64,000 nucleotides of DNA, from contig NZ_JAKZKV010000001.1 of assembly GCF_022808675.1 (NCBI RefSeq), forward strand, positions 310,001-374,000, in the 5' to 3' direction. The notes beneath the pieces are model-generated. The model saw nothing but the letters and a program-made list of their open reading frames with translations. It was not told the DNA's origin and searched no databases. Positions 40,772 to 48,564 of this stretch are shown here, piece after piece. Position numbers and translations under genes: made by a program. Position 1 is the first letter of the stretch. Each line of letters opens with the position of its first letter. Source of the stretch: Parabacteroides sp. FAFU027. GTDB lineage: Bacteria > Bacteroidota > Bacteroidia > Bacteroidales > UBA7332.

Positions 40772-41169
40772 CTCCGAAACGAACAAAAAACGGAGATACC
40801 CCACCCCAAAGGCTCCCTCATCGAGAGTCTTTGGGTAAATGAAAAAATCTCCTCTTTCACTTTTCCCTACGAGGGAGCTATTGTAATACGTCTCCGGTGT
40901 CAATAAGGCACTCAATATCCAGACGAGATTAACAGCTGTCTCTTCTGCCGGAGTATAGGTAGTTTTTAACGCTGACAGATCTATCGACACTGCCAGGTTA
41001 TCGGTACGTGATCATTGGGCGGTTAATTAGGCGGACTGGTATTCTCATCCCTCGAAACTGTCAGCGTGCTTGCATCTGACAGCGTTATTAAAAACAGCAT
41101 CGCTCCTCACCCCATTATCATTCTGAAAGTAAAACCAGCCAATCCCGTATTTTTTATCAAACTGACTAC

Positions 41170-41246
41170 ATGTGGACAACTGTGGAGCATATGTGGAGTT
41201 GCTGTGGAGCATATGTGGAGTTGCTGTGGAGCTGCTGTGGAGGAAG
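41170..41246. repeat. 11-bp-period array (TGTGGAGCATA type)
   Basis: Seven units in register, the last six exactly 11 bp: TGTGGAGCATA, TGTGGAGTTGC, TGTGGAGCATA, TGTGGAGTTGC, TGTGGAGCTGC and TGTGGAGGAAG, starting at 41181 and every 11 bp after. Alternation of two unit types gives a 22-bp higher-order repeat. Confidence 0.9.
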
Positions 41247-41539
41247 AACGGAGTTGGGTGCTATGAAAACCGCATATTCTTGTGACAAAATGGCAAATGC
41301 TCACTTTTCCAAATTTTGCAACTCATACCTCCTAGTTATCGTTAGCAGGCATTACTTCAAGTAGCCGATAGTAACATCTCGAAAGGAGTTTCTGCAATAG
41401 ATATGAAACATTTTTTTCAATATGAAGGTGGTAAAGCAGAAATAATCGGAAAGGAATGGTTATTTTTGATTCTTGTTCGAAAAATCAAATAATATTGGTG
41501 TGGAGATTTCCATTTATTATCGGGTGATTTTCACATTAA

Positions 41540-41634
41540 GGTAAATCCGGAGGCTTTGATATTCTAACGACGAAGACAGGAGCCTCTCGCCGAACGACAT
41601 ACTGCGGTTTTATTTTGTATGTAGTAGTTATTGG
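41540..41634 (-). repeat. Structured dispersed repeat, inverted copy
   Basis: The reverse complement reads AACCGCAGTATGTCGTTCGG, then GAGAGGCTCCTGTCTTCGTC, then AAAGCCTCCGGATTTACC, and aligns with the direct copies at 44351 and 47244. It ends where the integrase remnant begins. Confidence 0.75.
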
Positions 41635-41987
41635 CATATTATGGAGAAAATATGGTTGAATATATGCCAATTTCAAAACAAGCTTATCATCTTTGCGGTG
41701 AACCCGACAAGCCGGAGCAACATGTTTTTGAAGATTTACCAGACCCCTATTGGAATTCGGGCCCATTAAAGCGTTGGATAAAATCCGCAGGAATTACACG
41801 AAATATTACGTTTCATTGCTTCCGTAATACTTACGCAACCTTGCAACTTGCAGGCGGTACAGATATTTACGCCGTTTCCAAGTTGTTAGGCCACACCAAT
41901 GTAAAAACAACACATATTTATGCTAAAGTGGTAGATGAAAAGAAAGAAAAAGCAGTACACGCCATAAAGTTGAACATCAATAAATAA
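41635..41987 (+). pseudogene. N-terminally truncated tyrosine recombinase (integrase)
   Basis: Only the C-terminal part of a phage/transposon-type integrase remains (about 115 residues). The catalytic residues of boxes II and III are visible: His and Arg in FHCFRNTYA, the box-II His in LLGHTNVKTT, and the tyrosine nucleophile in THIYAKV. The first catalytic Arg and the whole N-terminal domain are missing. Homologous sequence starts near VEYMPISKQA (41652), directly after the dispersed repeat, so the break probably happened at the repeat. Its stop lies 9 nt before the nuclease-like gene, which may use its old transcript. Confidence 0.8.
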
Positions 41988-41996
41988 TAACCTACT

Positions 41997-44342
41997 ATGC
42001 CTAAAAGTAGAAAAAGAAAATTTCCAAAGAAAAATCCAAAGAAGAGGAATCCTAAACCATACGAAGTCGTTAAGCAAGAATTTGTTCAAATGGAAAATCC
42101 TTTTCCAGCTGATATTCCATTTGAGAAAAGAATAGAGTTTCTACTCGAAATAGGCAACAAAGCAAAAAACGACTTTGAAAGTGATTACCCAAAACTGATT
42201 CACTTCTTCAAAGAATATGATTCTTTGTATTTATGCTCTTTTTGTGCATATTATTTTTCGCTAAATAAAGAGGGGATTGATGAAGAAGCTGTTAATGGTT
42301 ATCTTGACTTTGCCCCCTTTCACCTTGAAATTTTGCAATGTATCTCATTGATGTTTGAGCAAAACCTTTCGGCGAAGCCACTACATGAAAGTATTGAAGA
42401 ATTTAAAACAACCATTAAAAACCTTAGCCAGAATCATTCTTTTATGAGTTTTCTGTTAGTAGAGAAAGCGGAAACCCAAGAAGACATTAGCAAAATGCTA
42501 TTGAGAACAGAAATGATGAACCACACCCGAGCGGTGAGAAATTGGGCATTTGTTCAACAAATGGAAACCACAGCTTATGATTTAGCCGAATTGATAGAAG
42601 ACCGCTTTGTTACTTCGCTAGGTTTTAGTCCTAAAAATTTTCTTGACATTCTCTTTAGTTTAGTTTCTCTTACAGAAGAAAAAATAAATATTCATCTCAG
42701 AAAAACCTCCTCTTTTTGCAGGATGAAAAAATATAATGAAGTGTTTGATAAATACGAGAAATGCTTTAGGCATGTGAAATGCACCGATGATTCGACAAGA
42801 AAAAGATTATGGGATAGGTATGGAAAGGATATCAAAACACTAAAAGCACTATTACTACAGCATTCCGATTTGTTTTTATCAGACATTTTCACGCATAGTT
42901 CATCCGAGATTCACAGTCATTTATCAGGCGAAATTCCAGAAAATGAGATTTGCAATGTCTTAGATAAGCTCAGTTTTAAATTTGGTGAACTCTCGCAGAT
43001 AAATAAAGACCATATATTTTTGGATAATCCGGTTCATTCAAAACCATTTATAAATATAGATGGGGATAAGTATTTCTCTGTTATCACACACATGTTCAGT
43101 CACCTTGGAGTGGACTTACTTGAAAAGTTTATTTCGAACGACAACGAATTGAAAAAAGAATATGCTCTAAAAAAAGGGAAATATCTCGAAGCGAAAGTAG
43201 AGCAACTATTCAGGCAATCCTTTCCCGATGCTCAGATTTTTACCGGGAGTTTATGGAAATGCCCAACAGAAAATAAAGAATTTGAAAACGACTTAATCGT
43301 ATTAATAGAAGATTTTGCAATAATAGTAGAATGCAAATCTGGCACCGTATCACCACCGGCAAGGCGTGGTGCAACTGAAAGACTTTCCGGAACTTTACAG
43401 AAACTAATCATAGAGCCTTCTGAACAAGCAATTCGCTTTGAAAATTACTTAAAGAAGCACAAACAGACACATACATTTAAAACAAAATCCGGGGCAAAAA
43501 ATCAGATAGACAGTACTAAAATCGAATACTACGTGCCGCTTGGGGTTACTCTCTCAAACCTGGGATCAATAGGTTGTAACCTTAAAAATTTAATCGATTC
43601 AAAAATTACCTCTCACAAGTTAAGTGAATTAGCTCCCTCAATAAGTTTGACGGATTTAGAAGTAATATTTGAAGTACTTCCTTTACAAGCAGAAAAAATA
43701 CACTATTTGTCAAGAAGAAGGGAGTTTGAGGCACATCTGAATTTTCGAGGAGATGAAATAGATTTGTTCGGCTTCTATTTAGATAATGGATTTAATATTG
43801 GAGAGACAGAATACGACGAATTATTCCACATTGATTTGACATTGAAATCAAAAGCACTTGACCCGTATTTTATTGGAAAACATAGAGGGGTTAATGTAAA
43901 GAAACCATATTTAAGAAAGACCAAGTATTGGAACGATTTGCTAGTAACGCTTGAGAAAAACGCCAAGAATTGGCTGCATATGTCGTACATCTTATTAAAT
44001 ATGCCAGAAGAGGATCAACTTAAATTTGAGAAGACTTTAAAACATCTTTCCGATAGGGTTATAAAGGGCAAGTGTATTCAACGGCACAATTGGCTAATTA
44101 TGGATTGTGGCCCGAAAAGAAGAAAGTATGCAATAGTTGGGTATCCATATAAGGACACAGATAAAGAAACTAGAAATGCTATTATTAACGACATTGTCGT
44201 TTCGTGCGATAAAGAAAACATTAGAGGAATTGTGATATTAGGATATAACTTAGATTCTAAAAATTACCCATATTCTGTCGTTGCAGGAAGTCTCAAAACC
44301 GATTTCTTCGATAGTTTGGAATTGAAACATCAAATAGAGTAA
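41997..44342 (+). CDS. Large protein with PD-(D/E)XK nuclease-like core (candidate defence gene)
   Basis: 781-aa protein I do not recognise as a named family. The first ~20 residues are Lys/Arg-rich (KSRKRKFPKKNPKKRNPK), then comes a long helical region to about 390. A restriction-nuclease-like core follows: an acidic helix in KGKYLEAKVEQLF (about 398-410), then FENDLIVL with D432, and IIVECKSG with E445 and K447, the spacing of a PD-(D/E)XK (NERD/Mrr-like) site. The C-terminal half (about 560-781) has no motif I know. It is AT-rich compared with the core genes, sits between an integrase remnant and a BRO-N pseudogene, and is bounded by inverted copies of one repeat. Anti-phage activity is inference from context. 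Confidence 0.7.
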   Translation: MPKSRKRKFPKKNPKKRNPKPYEVVKQEFVQMENPFPADIPFEKRIEFLLEIGNKAKNDFESDYPKLIHFFKEYDSLYLCSFCAYYFSLNKEGIDEEAVNGYLDFAPFHLEILQCISLMFEQNLSAKPLHESIEEFKTTIKNLSQNHSFMSFLLVEKAETQEDISKMLLRTEMMNHTRAVRNWAFVQQMETTAYDLAELIEDRFVTSLGFSPKNFLDILFSLVSLTEEKINIHLRKTSSFCRMKKYNEVFDKYEKCFRHVKCTDDSTRKRLWDRYGKDIKTLKALLLQHSDLFLSDIFTHSSSEIHSHLSGEIPENEICNVLDKLSFKFGELSQINKDHIFLDNPVHSKPFINIDGDKYFSVITHMFSHLGVDLLEKFISNDNELKKEYALKKGKYLEAKVEQLFRQSFPDAQIFTGSLWKCPTENKEFENDLIVLIEDFAIIVECKSGTVSPPARRGATERLSGTLQKLIIEPSEQAIRFENYLKKHKQTHTFKTKSGAKNQIDSTKIEYYVPLGVTLSNLGSIGCNLKNLIDSKITSHKLSELAPSISLTDLEVIFEVLPLQAEKIHYLSRRREFEAHLNFRGDEIDLFGFYLDNGFNIGETEYDELFHIDLTLKSKALDPYFIGKHRGVNVKKPYLRKTKYWNDLLVTLEKNAKNWLHMSYILLNMPEEDQLKFEKTLKHLSDRVIKGKCIQRHNWLIMDCGPKRRKYAIVGYPYKDTDKETRNAIINDIVVSCDKENIRGIVILGYNLDSKNYPYSVVAGSLKTDFFDSLELKHQIE

Positions 44343-44350
44343 GTAAACAT

Positions 44351-44518
44351 TCTCCGTTCAGCATAGCTTAATAAACACCAATATAACAAAATGCAGCATG
44401 CCGTTCGGCGTATGACTCCAGCCTACGTCGTCAAAAAATCAAAGCCTCCGGCCTTACCAAAACAAAAATATCCGACCTAAGCACGCCACTTCAGTCGGAT
44501 GTTTTTTATTTAAAACCA
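44351..44518 (+). repeat. Structured dispersed repeat, direct copy A
   Basis: About 168 bp aligned over its whole length to copy B (47244-47410). It contains GCCGTTCGGCGTATG, a hairpin CGTA-GAC...-TACG region, AAGCCTCCGGCCTT, and ends in an intrinsic terminator. Confidence 0.8.
44468..44507 (+). terminator. Intrinsic terminator inside repeat copy A
   Basis: ATCCGAC (44470-44476) pairs with GTCGGAT (44494-44500), followed by GTTTTTT. It may end transcription of the nuclease-like gene. Confidence 0.75.
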
Positions 44519-44632
44519 GCAGTTGAAAACTAAGTCACTGCAACTTGACACATCATACAGAACCTACAAGATAAAATTACCATAACTTTTGAGGGTAATT
44601 TTTTGAACAATAGAGTAGATGACTTCCAAATT

Positions 44633-44860
44633 ATGAGCAACGCCCAAATATCCATCCGTTATTTTTGACGACCGCGAAGCACGAGCCGCCTGGGACGAAC
44701 AAAAATCCAAATGGCGGTTTAGTGTGTTGGATATTGTAGCTGTGCTTACTAACTAGGACGATTACACCAAAACCCGCAACTATTGGAAACATCTAAAAGC
44801 CAAATTGAAAAAGAGAACAGTGAGTTTGTTAGTGACACTACCCAGTTGAAACTTTTAGCA
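44633..44860 (+). pseudogene. BRO-N-type phage antirepressor remnant
   Basis: Translation across frames gives MSNAQISIRYF, then DDREARAAWDEQKSKWRFSV LDIVAVLTN stop DDYTKTRNYWKHLKAKLKK and ENSEFVSDTTQLKLLA. This matches the N-terminal BRO/antirepressor domain common on Bacteroidota mobile elements. Two frameshifts (near 44666 and 44815) and an in-frame TAG inactivate it. Only the N-terminal third of the usual gene is left. Confidence 0.75.
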
Positions 44861-45010
44861 AATCAACCAAAAACCTCATTAGGTCGTTCGGCGTATGGCT
44901 TCTGCCCAAGAAATGCACCTTAGATATAAGGACACTGTAAAATCAGAAAATGACACTGTAAATGACACTGTATTTTATCTGATAAAGGAAAACGACAAAA
45001 TAACTACAAC

Positions 45011-45039
45011 TGGAATCAGCGGTTAAATAGCTATCGGGA
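45011..45039. repeat. 29-bp exact repeat, copy 1
   Basis: Begins TGGAATCAGCGGTTAAATAG and is identical to 47668-47696. Similar but diverged sequence continues for about 55 bp further in both copies. Confidence 0.85.
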
Positions 45040-45484
45040 AACTTCCTCAACAAAGGATTGTCATCAATGAAGGTATATTTCTTCCCTTTTTTAGCGTAGC
45101 TTATAAACAACCAATACAACAATGACATACCACAGTTGATCACTCGGTGTATGGCAACACTCTCCGTAGGTTATCATATAAACTTAACCCCTCTTTTGTG
45201 CGAATATATTCATAGCACAACTCAGATATCAGACTTGAAAAAAGGCTTTATTATCTATAATCTGCAACAATTGCCTGTTTCGAATTTCGCTAAAGGGAAA
45301 ATCCGCACCTAACTTGCTTTCCATGTTAAAAGTTTGGTTAAATTTGCCGCTACAACATCGTTTCCATCAGGTAAAGCTTCATCTAAAAATGAAACTATGT
45401 TTCGCTAAGGCTAATTCAACCTGCTTCAATCCGAATCGATGTTTATGTTATTATGAAACTAAATCTAATTAACCCGGAAAAAGA

Positions 45485-47026
45485 ATGAGATTAAAAAAAG
45501 TAATCCTCGCTTTAAGTTTATGCCTCTATATGATGGTTCAAGCTCAAACCCCGACTAGCAAGGGAGATGACTTAATAAAACAGGCAAAAGCCCGATATGA
45601 ACAAAAAGATTTTACATCTTCGCGTTCTCTCTACAAACAGGCCTTTGATGCTTTTGCAGCAGCCGGAAGCTATAAACAGGCAGTTGAATGCGGAATATAC
45701 GTCAGCAATCTTTATCACAGAGAATTCCTTTATAAAGAGGCCTTCGATATGTGTCGCACATTGGATCAGATGATTGCTAATGCAGGACAGACTCAGCATA
45801 AAACACTATACGACCTCTTCTTTCTGGTAACCAAGGAACGGGAAAACATGTACCTGAAACTTAAAAATCCGGTTCAGGCAAAAGTTCAGTTGGACCGACT
45901 GCAGGAACTGGCAAATCAATCGGACAATCAGGATATCCATAATGACTATCTGTATAGCAAAATGAACTACCACTACTCTTTTGGACAAAATACAGAAGGC
46001 GATGCGACATTCTCCGAATTGATTGCCAAATACCGCAAACAGAAGAACTATGATAAAGTGACAGCATGTTACAAAACGCTGATCGGAGTTGCTACCCGCG
46101 CCAACAATGCACCACTCGTAGCTCGTACTTATGACAAGCTGATTGCATGGCTTGAAACTGCAAAAACAATGAATGCTCAGGACGAACTGAGTGTCGCTAA
46201 AAGGAAATACAACGAAAGCCTGCAAACGATAAAGGAAAAGGATGACGCGTTAGCCACTAAAAAGCACATTATCGGTGGACTGATTACTCTGATCGTAATT
46301 CTTGCAGCAGGTCTTGCAATTCTTATCGTATTGATGATTCGTAATCTGGCGGTAATTGCCCGGCAGAAAAAAACAATCCGCATTGCTAATGAACACAATG
46401 AACTGAAATCTCAGTTTATCAATAACATCTCAGCTCAGATGGCTCCGGCATTGGATGCTTTGGATCAATCAGCCGGCAGGATAACAGGAGCTCAACATTT
46501 GAGCGTACAAATCAGCGCATTGAAGAGTTTTAGTAAACATATCCAGGATCTTACAACTCTGGAAAATTCTTTATCAGAAACATATGAACTCAATGACAAT
46601 TGTAATGTCGGTAAATTGTGTGATGAATTGATAAGCGGAATTAAAGGAGAGTTGAAAACAGGCGTTACCACTTCACTTGATGTGACTGCTCTTCAATTGA
46701 AAACCAACACCGAACAACTGACTTTTCTATTGAATCATTTACTGCGAAATGCAGCTTATCATACTGAAAGCGGGAAAATTACTCTCGAATTTAAGAAACG
46801 TGCAGCTCATGTCTTCCAGTTTTCTGTTACGGATACAGGTCCGGGAATTCCAGCTGAACAACGCGAAGAAATATTCAAACCGTTCAGCGGCATTAAGGAT
46901 CTTACACAGGGTGATGGTCTTGGATTGCCTATCTGCTCTCTGATTGCTATGAAATTAAATGGCAGTCTGACACTTGATCCGACTTACACAAAAGGTTGCC
47001 GCTTCATACTTAAAATAACCGCATAA
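45485..47026 (+). CDS. Sensor-kinase-like protein lacking the phospho-acceptor His
   Basis: 513-aa membrane protein. Signal peptide (1-20), TPR-like periplasmic helices (about 25-230), one membrane span (about 262-286), then a DHp-like helix and a HATPase_c domain. The H-box reads FINNISAQMAP where active kinases have a His at the position of A317, so it cannot autophosphorylate in the normal way. The ATPase boxes look intact: LLRNAAYHT (N), DTGPGIP (G1), IFKPF (F), GDGLGLPIC (G2). It may bind ATP and act as a scaffold or phosphatase-like partner, or be a recent degenerate copy. No response regulator is adjacent. A strong terminator follows. Confidence 0.8.
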   Translation: MRLKKVILALSLCLYMMVQAQTPTSKGDDLIKQAKARYEQKDFTSSRSLYKQAFDAFAAAGSYKQAVECGIYVSNLYHREFLYKEAFDMCRTLDQMIANAGQTQHKTLYDLFFLVTKERENMYLKLKNPVQAKVQLDRLQELANQSDNQDIHNDYLYSKMNYHYSFGQNTEGDATFSELIAKYRKQKNYDKVTACYKTLIGVATRANNAPLVARTYDKLIAWLETAKTMNAQDELSVAKRKYNESLQTIKEKDDALATKKHIIGGLITLIVILAAGLAILIVLMIRNLAVIARQKKTIRIANEHNELKSQFINNISAQMAPALDALDQSAGRITGAQHLSVQISALKSFSKHIQDLTTLENSLSETYELNDNCNVGKLCDELISGIKGELKTGVTTSLDVTALQLKTNTEQLTFLLNHLLRNAAYHTESGKITLEFKKRAAHVFQFSVTDTGPGIPAEQREEIFKPFSGIKDLTQGDGLGLPICSLIAMKLNGSLTLDPTYTKGCRFILKITA

Positions 47027-47043
47027 AGTGTCATTGCAAGCAT

Positions 47044-47087
47044 AAAACGCTCACTTTTCACAGGATTGAAAAGTGAGCGTTTTTTTT
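47044..47087 (+). terminator. Intrinsic terminator after the sensor-kinase-like gene
   Basis: A perfect 17-bp stem (47044-47060 with 47067-47083), loop CAGGAT, then a T-run. Confidence 0.95.
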
Positions 47088-47243
47088 ATTATTAGGGTTC
47101 TACTGGTTTTAGTATGGGTTAACATTCTTAGCAACCTTTACAATTGAATCTTTAAGGTTAATACAATGCGTGAGCAAAAGTCTGAAGGACTTTAATTTGA
47201 ATAACCACGGGTGAAAACCCGTGGAAGAATAAATAACCATCTA

Positions 47244-47410
47244 TCCGTTCGGCGTAGCCTGATTTACAACCGATAAACAATCAAAACCGCAGTAAGCCGT
47301 TCGGCGTATGGCTCCGGCCTACGTCGTGAATAATCAAGGCCACCGGCCTTACCAAACAAAAAACATCCGACTAAAGCACACCGCTTCAGTCGGATGTTTT
47401 TCATTTAAAC
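47244..47410 (+). repeat. Structured dispersed repeat, direct copy B
   Basis: Best preserved copy. Consecutive hairpins are visible: GCCGTTCGGC, CGTATGGCTCCGGCCTACG (7-bp stem with one bulged T), AAGGCCACCGGCCTT, and a final terminator ATCCGAC...GTCGGAT with T-run. The order is the same in copy A. Confidence 0.8.
47363..47402 (+). terminator. Intrinsic terminator inside repeat copy B
   Basis: ACATCCGAC (47363-47371) pairs with GTCGGATGT (47389-47397), followed by TTTT. Confidence 0.75.
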
Positions 47411-47514
47411 CCGACAGTAGAGAGTATATGCGGAGAAGAAAGCCACCAATCTCCGGAAAACATACGGAAATTACCCTACCCAACAACAGATTTACCTTAC
47501 CGGGGTAATCTACT

Positions 47515-47569
47515 GCTCCGATACTCCTCCGATATTGCTCCGATACTCGTCCGATCATCCGCGATCATT
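47515..47569. repeat. 11-bp-period array (GCTCCGATACT type)
   Basis: 11-mers GCTCCGATACT (47515), CCTCCGATATT (47526), GCTCCGATACT (47537), CGTCCGATCAT (47548) and CCGCGATCATT (47559). Confidence 0.85.
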
Positions 47570-47667
47570 CTCTGCATAGCGCAAACTATCACAATCAGCA
47601 AGTAAAGCTCAATACTTGCAAAGAATGTTCTTCTGCGGGCTATGTGATAACCGCGATAATATCCGAT

Positions 47668-47696
47668 TGGAATCAGCGGTTAAATAGCTATCGGGA
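47668..47696. repeat. 29-bp exact repeat, copy 2
   Basis: Identical to 45011-45039. Together with repeat copies A and B it shows that the flanks of the sensor-kinase-like gene are partly duplicated. Confidence 0.85.
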
Positions 47697-47934
47697 CGCT
47701 GCACCCACAAGTGACTACCATCAATGAACATATATTCCTTTCTCTTTCATCTTACCACCCGACTAAAGACCGACGCCTGCGACACTCCACAACCGCACAA
47801 CCCCGTAAGTGTGACCGATACATAATGCCAGAGCTGAGTCCGGCATATACCGACAACACTCCTGCATTGACAAAAACCACTCCCTCTCCCACCGATTCAT
47901 CCAGTCAAACTTTCCGCTGTCCATTAAAAATGAC

Positions 47935-47942
47935 TATCTTTG
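47935..47942 (+). promoter_or_regulatory. -7 element for hisIE
   Basis: TATCTTTG followed by CC, 29 nt before the ATG at 47971. Confidence 0.6.
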
Positions 47943-47970
47943 CCGCCTGCAAGCAAACTAATAGACAATT

Positions 47971-48564
47971 ATGATCGACTTTAATAAAATGGAGGGATTG
48001 GTTCCCGCCATCATCCAGGATGAACAGACCAACAAGGTATTGATGCTCGGTTTCATGAACGAAGCTGCTTATCAGAAAACAGTAGAAATCGGCAAAGTAA
48101 CCTTCTTCAGCCGCACTAAAAATCGTCTTTGGACGAAAGGTGAAGAAAGCGGAAACTTCCTGTTGGTAAAAAATATCGCTGTAGATTGCGACAACGACAC
48201 ATTGCTGATCAAGGTAAATCCGGTAGGCCCGGTATGCCACACTGGCGCGGATACCTGCTTCGAAGAGATCAACGAAAACCCGATCCAGTTCCTCGCATAC
48301 TTGCAGGACTTCATCACCCGTCGTCACCAAGAGATGCCTGAAGGTTCTTACACCACTTCTCTTTTCAAAAAAGGGGTAAACCGCATGGCGCAGAAGGTAG
48401 GCGAAGAGGCTGTAGAGACTGTTATCGAAGCGACCAACGGTACCGACGAAGGGTTCCTTTACGAAGCTTCTGACCTGATCTACCACCTGATCGTATTGCT
48501 GACCAGCAAAGGCCACCGCATCGAAGACCTGGCTATGGAGCTGAAAAAACGTCACAAAGAATAG
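47971..48564 (+). CDS. hisIE: Bifunctional phosphoribosyl-AMP cyclohydrolase / phosphoribosyl-ATP pyrophosphatase
   Basis: Steps 2 and 3 of histidine synthesis in one 197-aa cytosolic protein. The N-terminal HisI domain (about 1-105) has [19 protein letters not shown] and the metal-binding [11 protein letters not shown] and CHTGADTC. The C-terminal HisE domain (about 108-197) has [28 protein letters not shown] and [10 protein letters not shown]. It is not with other his genes here, which suggests a split his pathway in the genome. The ABC ATPase gene follows after 39 nt. Confidence 0.95.

Follow-up and report, generated by a model that had tools for sequence, protein, structure and literature searches.

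A predicted stand-alone PD-(D/E)XK nuclease resembling Upx in fold, a probable anti-phage defense gene in Parabacteroides sp. FAFU027

Upx is a single-gene defense system reportedly described by Gao et al. in 2020, and a cryo-EM structure of it (9wuf, 1212 residues in the chain) was released in 2026. It is counted among anti-phage systems (PMC10855318) and is concentrated in a Pseudomonas island hotspot (PMC12629846). For NERD-type nuclease domains, in turn, a role as suicidal or backup effectors of Dnd and BREX systems has been proposed (PMC10853773, PMC12839542). Here, we compare with these systems, and with the Can2/Card1 and McrC nucleases, a gene in the genome of Parabacteroides sp. FAFU027. 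The window analyzed is 64,000 nucleotides long (positions 310,001 to 374,000 of contig NZ_JAKZKV010000001.1); a sequence-only reading had picked out the gene as a candidate single-gene anti-phage effector or mobile-element accessory nuclease.

The gene (41997–44342, + strand) is an intact, uninterrupted open reading frame encoding 781 amino acids, as had been read from the letters. Its N-terminus is indeed very basic, with 12 K/R against 2 D/E among residues 1–30. An AlphaFold2 model built on a 20-sequence alignment (pLDDT 88, pTM 0.88) placed a PD-(D/E)XK core at residues 383–522 (43143–43562) between a helical N-terminal domain (residues 30–382; 42084–43142) and, beyond a post-nuclease segment (residues 523–640; 43563–43916), a C-terminal alpha/beta domain of no recognized family (residues 641–781; 43917–44339). 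The secondary structure of the core runs alpha-beta-beta-beta-alpha-beta and bears E398, D432, and E445-x-K447, so that the restriction-nuclease fold anticipated around D432, E445, and K447 is present in the model. E430, Q477, and R480 complete the putative active-site set (43188–43436). This topology, the E, D, and ExK residues, and the fold matches to restriction enzymes place the protein in the PD-(D/E)XK superfamily; it would be a catalytically active nuclease with DNA as its putative substrate.

Searched by structure with VIA-align, the whole model matched Upx (9wuf) first, with a Z of 11.6 over 402 residues (model residues 59–660), followed by Nt.BspD6I, McrC, and Can2-like enzymes, each aligned over approximately 170 residues or fewer. 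To guard against chance scores from helical parts, the N-terminal domain was also folded separately as residues 30–385; the resulting model was confident and helical (pLDDT 89) and again ranked 9wuf first (Z 11.0, 261 of 356 residues), with the next match at Z 5.3. In mainly helical models, Z values below about 13 can reflect a common arrangement, and it is therefore the gap to the second match, not Z itself, that carries the argument. The fold shared with Upx thus extends beyond the nuclease core, whereas the proteins differ in length (781 vs 1212 residues) and are only about 9–10% identical. No sequence-level match between the two was found in searches of solved structures and PADLOC, and 32 family members gave no Upx match in PADLOC at E values up to 10 (an Upx model in that library is unconfirmed). 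Sequence searches against solved structures yielded no convincing match, and Foldseek alone gave none with E < 0.001 in the PDB or among viral models. The likeness is one of fold and not an assignment to Upx, and residue correspondence is ambiguous between the two alignments, in which the Upx ranges differ (32–867 vs 757–1110). Judged by the models, the window protein is Upx-like in shape and plausibly works like such a system.

The differing Upx ranges point to a possible duplication or rearrangement in Upx and would fit a duplication there. Tentatively, and with some doubt, we suggest that Upx and this unnamed, widespread, single-gene PD-(D/E)XK immunity family might belong to a single superfamily whose common feature is a helical sensor domain, the 781-residue form perhaps being the simpler arrangement and Upx one with an extra or rearranged helical domain. 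If the family is confirmed, it would broaden Upx from an isolated system to a fold family, and would offer a smaller representative for asking how the helical domain senses invasion.

The likeness seen to the other systems lies in the core. NERD (PF08378) matched the core of the window protein weakly (E = 0.005, score 17.8 vs a cut-off of 22.1); the same match was seen in 22 of the 32 family members, and one distant relative (P0009) passed the cut-off with a score of 24.1. NERD, however, covers the nuclease core alone, whereas the window protein is much larger. Can2/Card1 and McrC nucleases have cores similar to that of the window protein (Z about 7–8), and the PADLOC model CARF_PDDEXK matched a few distant family members weakly, but a CARF domain was not detected: the N-terminal region is helical, and no CARF chain was among the matches listed. 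Likewise, no CRISPR or McrB partner was identified at the loci examined. Apart from the sub-cut-off NERD match in Pfam, no family name for the window protein was found in PADLOC (2023), NCBIfam (2026), or PHROGs.

We investigated conservation in a family assembled here from 32 divergent members. P350, D432, K447, Q477, L554, R574, and E587 were invariant, and the residues E398, E430, D432, E445, K447, and Q477 were invariant or nearly so, the D432, E445, and K447 singled out in the sequence-only reading among them. Conservation was lowest in the N-terminal (35%) and faster-evolving C-terminal (38%) parts and higher in the nuclease (51%) and the following segment (55%), which holds L554, R574, and D586–E587; the greater variation of the outer domains would be expected if they meet changing partners. 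Two close pairs of relatives had dN/dS values of 0.147 and 0.105, showing that the relatives are under purifying selection. In a Tannerellaceae MAG (L098:3031–5191), a frame change near codon 393 splits the homologous gene, and identity to the window protein is 56% in the first part and 74% in the second; the difference could come from an exchange of domains, or just from uneven conservation together with assembly error. Relatives on two Streptomyces plasmids (L004, L009) bear the annotation 'preprotein translocase subunit SecA', which is probably wrong, and other relatives carry a SEC-C motif at the C-terminus. In the literature searched, NERD and SEC-C were not found combined in connection with defense.

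Homologues are patchily distributed. A phylum-wide profile search found them in 20 of the 395 genomes, and of 99 genomes searched, 2 gave a match, the window protein's own genome being one of them. Additionally, tblastn on plasmids returned 15 records, among them a relative of nearly full length on plasmid pSJ25 of Salimicrobium. A single-protein search of genome and viral contigs detected no related locus, and the first family alignment was too divergent for locus search; with a closer alignment, 21 loci were found in genome contigs (23–74% identity in the best segment), while the viral contigs yielded none and phage records gave no match. The hosts of these loci include Labilibaculum, Flavobacterium, Maribacter, Mucilaginibacter, Pedobacter, Sphingobacterium, Chryseobacterium, and others, and further loci lie in MAGs named Acidobacteria, Proteobacteria, and Calditrichaeota. 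Host families are intermingled in the tree: the window gene forms a strongly supported group with genes of Maribacter (Flavobacteriaceae) and Labilibaculum (Marinifilaceae), and that of Flavobacterium Leaf82 is paired with one from a Mucilaginibacter, although claims between phyla are limited by MAG binning and long branches. Furthermore, two homologues that are 97% identical (L083 and L031), one of them in Flavobacterium chilense, lie inside a conjugative element with a relaxase. The homologues are not at fixed core-genome positions; they are patchy and present in several phyla, on plasmids, and in a conjugative element. The window gene was acquired horizontally.

The sequence-only reading had asked whether homologues sit in defense islands, and several do: Gabija, CBASS, AbiL, a UG21 reverse transcriptase (RT_UG21), and Avs2 adjoin them, these having been identified beside homologues and not beside the window copy. 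At one locus (L096), GajA and GajB as called by PADLOC lie directly upstream and a STAND-type NTPase downstream; at another (L097), beside a CBASS cyclase identified by PADLOC, a patatin phospholipase ends about 40 nt before the homologue, which is followed by an integrase. PADLOC neighbors also included AbiLi and AbiLii (L094), RT_UG21 (L086), and Avs2 (L092). Lit adjoins an Aliarcobacter relative, an Mrr-type endonuclease is near L090, and pSJ25 carries type I restriction–modification genes. The 104 neighbors matched 277 PADLOC models, as against 92 for 104 control proteins, which is supportive and not a formal enrichment, since models and not genes were counted and the controls came from partly different genomes. 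Matches of the neighbors included HamB, GajA, and GajB at E < 1e-200; those of the controls were mostly general helicases and type IIG enzymes. Several close relatives (e.g., L082, L085, and L087) are among ordinary genes. A UPF0489-type gene, possibly a recurring neighbor, lies directly beside two distant homologues (L098:2218–2946, a clear Pfam match; L005:11677–12459, below the cut-off).

The family thus shows the features by which anti-phage defense genes are recognized, namely patchy occurrence, horizontal movement, and residence in defense islands. We consider that the window protein is most likely a stand-alone multidomain PD-(D/E)XK nuclease whose role is to protect the cell from phages or from other invading DNA. 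It belongs to an unnamed family and would probably be a single-gene nuclease directed against phages or MGEs. The helical N-terminal and variable C-terminal domains would sense or bind a signal of invasion and restrain the nuclease; once triggered, the metal-dependent core (E398, E430/D432, E445-x-K447, and Q477) would cut DNA, either that of the invader or, in a suicidal response, that of the host. The proposal is directly testable, since it concerns a single gene whose active site is conserved and whose model is confident. The family spans several phyla and adjoins well-known immune systems, yet it is unnamed in the libraries searched.

The site of the window gene itself bears on how the gene arrived and whom it serves. 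A C-terminal fragment of a tyrosine integrase (41655–41987, + strand; Pfam Phage_integrase 7e-11, PHROG integrase 1.6e-18) ends 9 nt upstream of the start codon, as described from the letters. Downstream, the supposed decayed BRO-N gene (44652–44876, + strand) is indeed a remnant, disrupted by a stop and by a change of frame; the BRO-N identity was not confirmed by Pfam, for which one piece was searched, and the remnant's match is to an unnamed phage family (phrog_15286, 9e-6). In a sister species (G002), the flanks align at 94–95% DNA identity up to 41648 and again from 45081, and the segment between them (41649–45080) is replaced by other content: one contig bears a radical-SAM-like ORF, a second one ASCH-like and Fic-like ORFs (loci L141 and L142, on contigs C31 and C313), these names coming from reading the sequence and not from profiles. 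The nuclease homologue was not found in this assembly, which is 89% complete and fragmented. Cargo at the locus therefore varies, and this difference in content at one chromosomal site suggests an integration hotspot. The window gene would probably have arrived as cargo beside the integrase of an integrative element that has since lost its other genes to decay.

Such an origin raises the alternative that the nuclease serves the mobile element, in transfer, recombination, or exclusion of competitors, and does not protect the cell from phages. Proximity to the integrase fragment, the conjugative element, and the plasmid-borne homologues speak for it, but defense genes themselves are common cargo of such elements, and the homologues are found both on element types unrelated to one another and next to chromosomal defense systems, so that no single element's machinery explains them; we regard this reading as unlikely. 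The broader expectation of a role in either defense or mobility is supported by the fold, the neighbors in defense islands, the patchy horizontal distribution, and the homologue not being found in the sister species.

Returning to defense proper, the protein could instead be a restriction-like enzyme that cuts DNA according to its modification state, as type IV enzymes do, and involves no cell suicide. Its fold neighbors McrC and the nicking enzyme Nt.BspD6I would suit this, as would the position of a Rhizobium relative near a DNA adenine methylase and a DGQHR-domain gene; there is, however, no fixed methyltransferase partner across loci, domain searches recognized no modified-base-binding domain in the window protein or family members, and we think this quite improbable. 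An ordinary housekeeping repair nuclease, which the presence of EndoMS and Holliday junction resolvases among PD-(D/E)XK folds might recall, can be set aside as highly improbable because the distribution is patchy, with the gene missing from most relatives in both genome searches and not found in the sister species.

The locus had also been described as bounded by inverted repeats. Copies on either side of the gene are indeed inverted (41540–41610, − strand, and 44388–44458, + strand; 71 nt, 77% complementary), the right one having a terminator-like hairpin and a T-run downstream of it (about 44470–44506), but they delimit no element. A genome search found about 12 near-full-length copies across the genome, and the left copy lies in the flank that aligns with the sister species; the repeats are thus resident. 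Considered both as candidate integron attC sites and as element ends, they were rejected as ends, and the idea of a mobile unit bounded by them was found unsupported. Rfam gave a single sub-threshold match over 41000–48000. Many copies fold as tandem hairpins, and this dispersed two-hairpin repeat of about 70 bp sits at the edges of accessory genes. Other positions in the window are 44885–44906 and 47289–47362, and the sister species has the repeat too. On contig C6 (L077, 54468–59797), five near-full copies lie on one strand within 5.5 kb, where they set regulator-like genes and fragments of genes apart in a row resembling cassettes.
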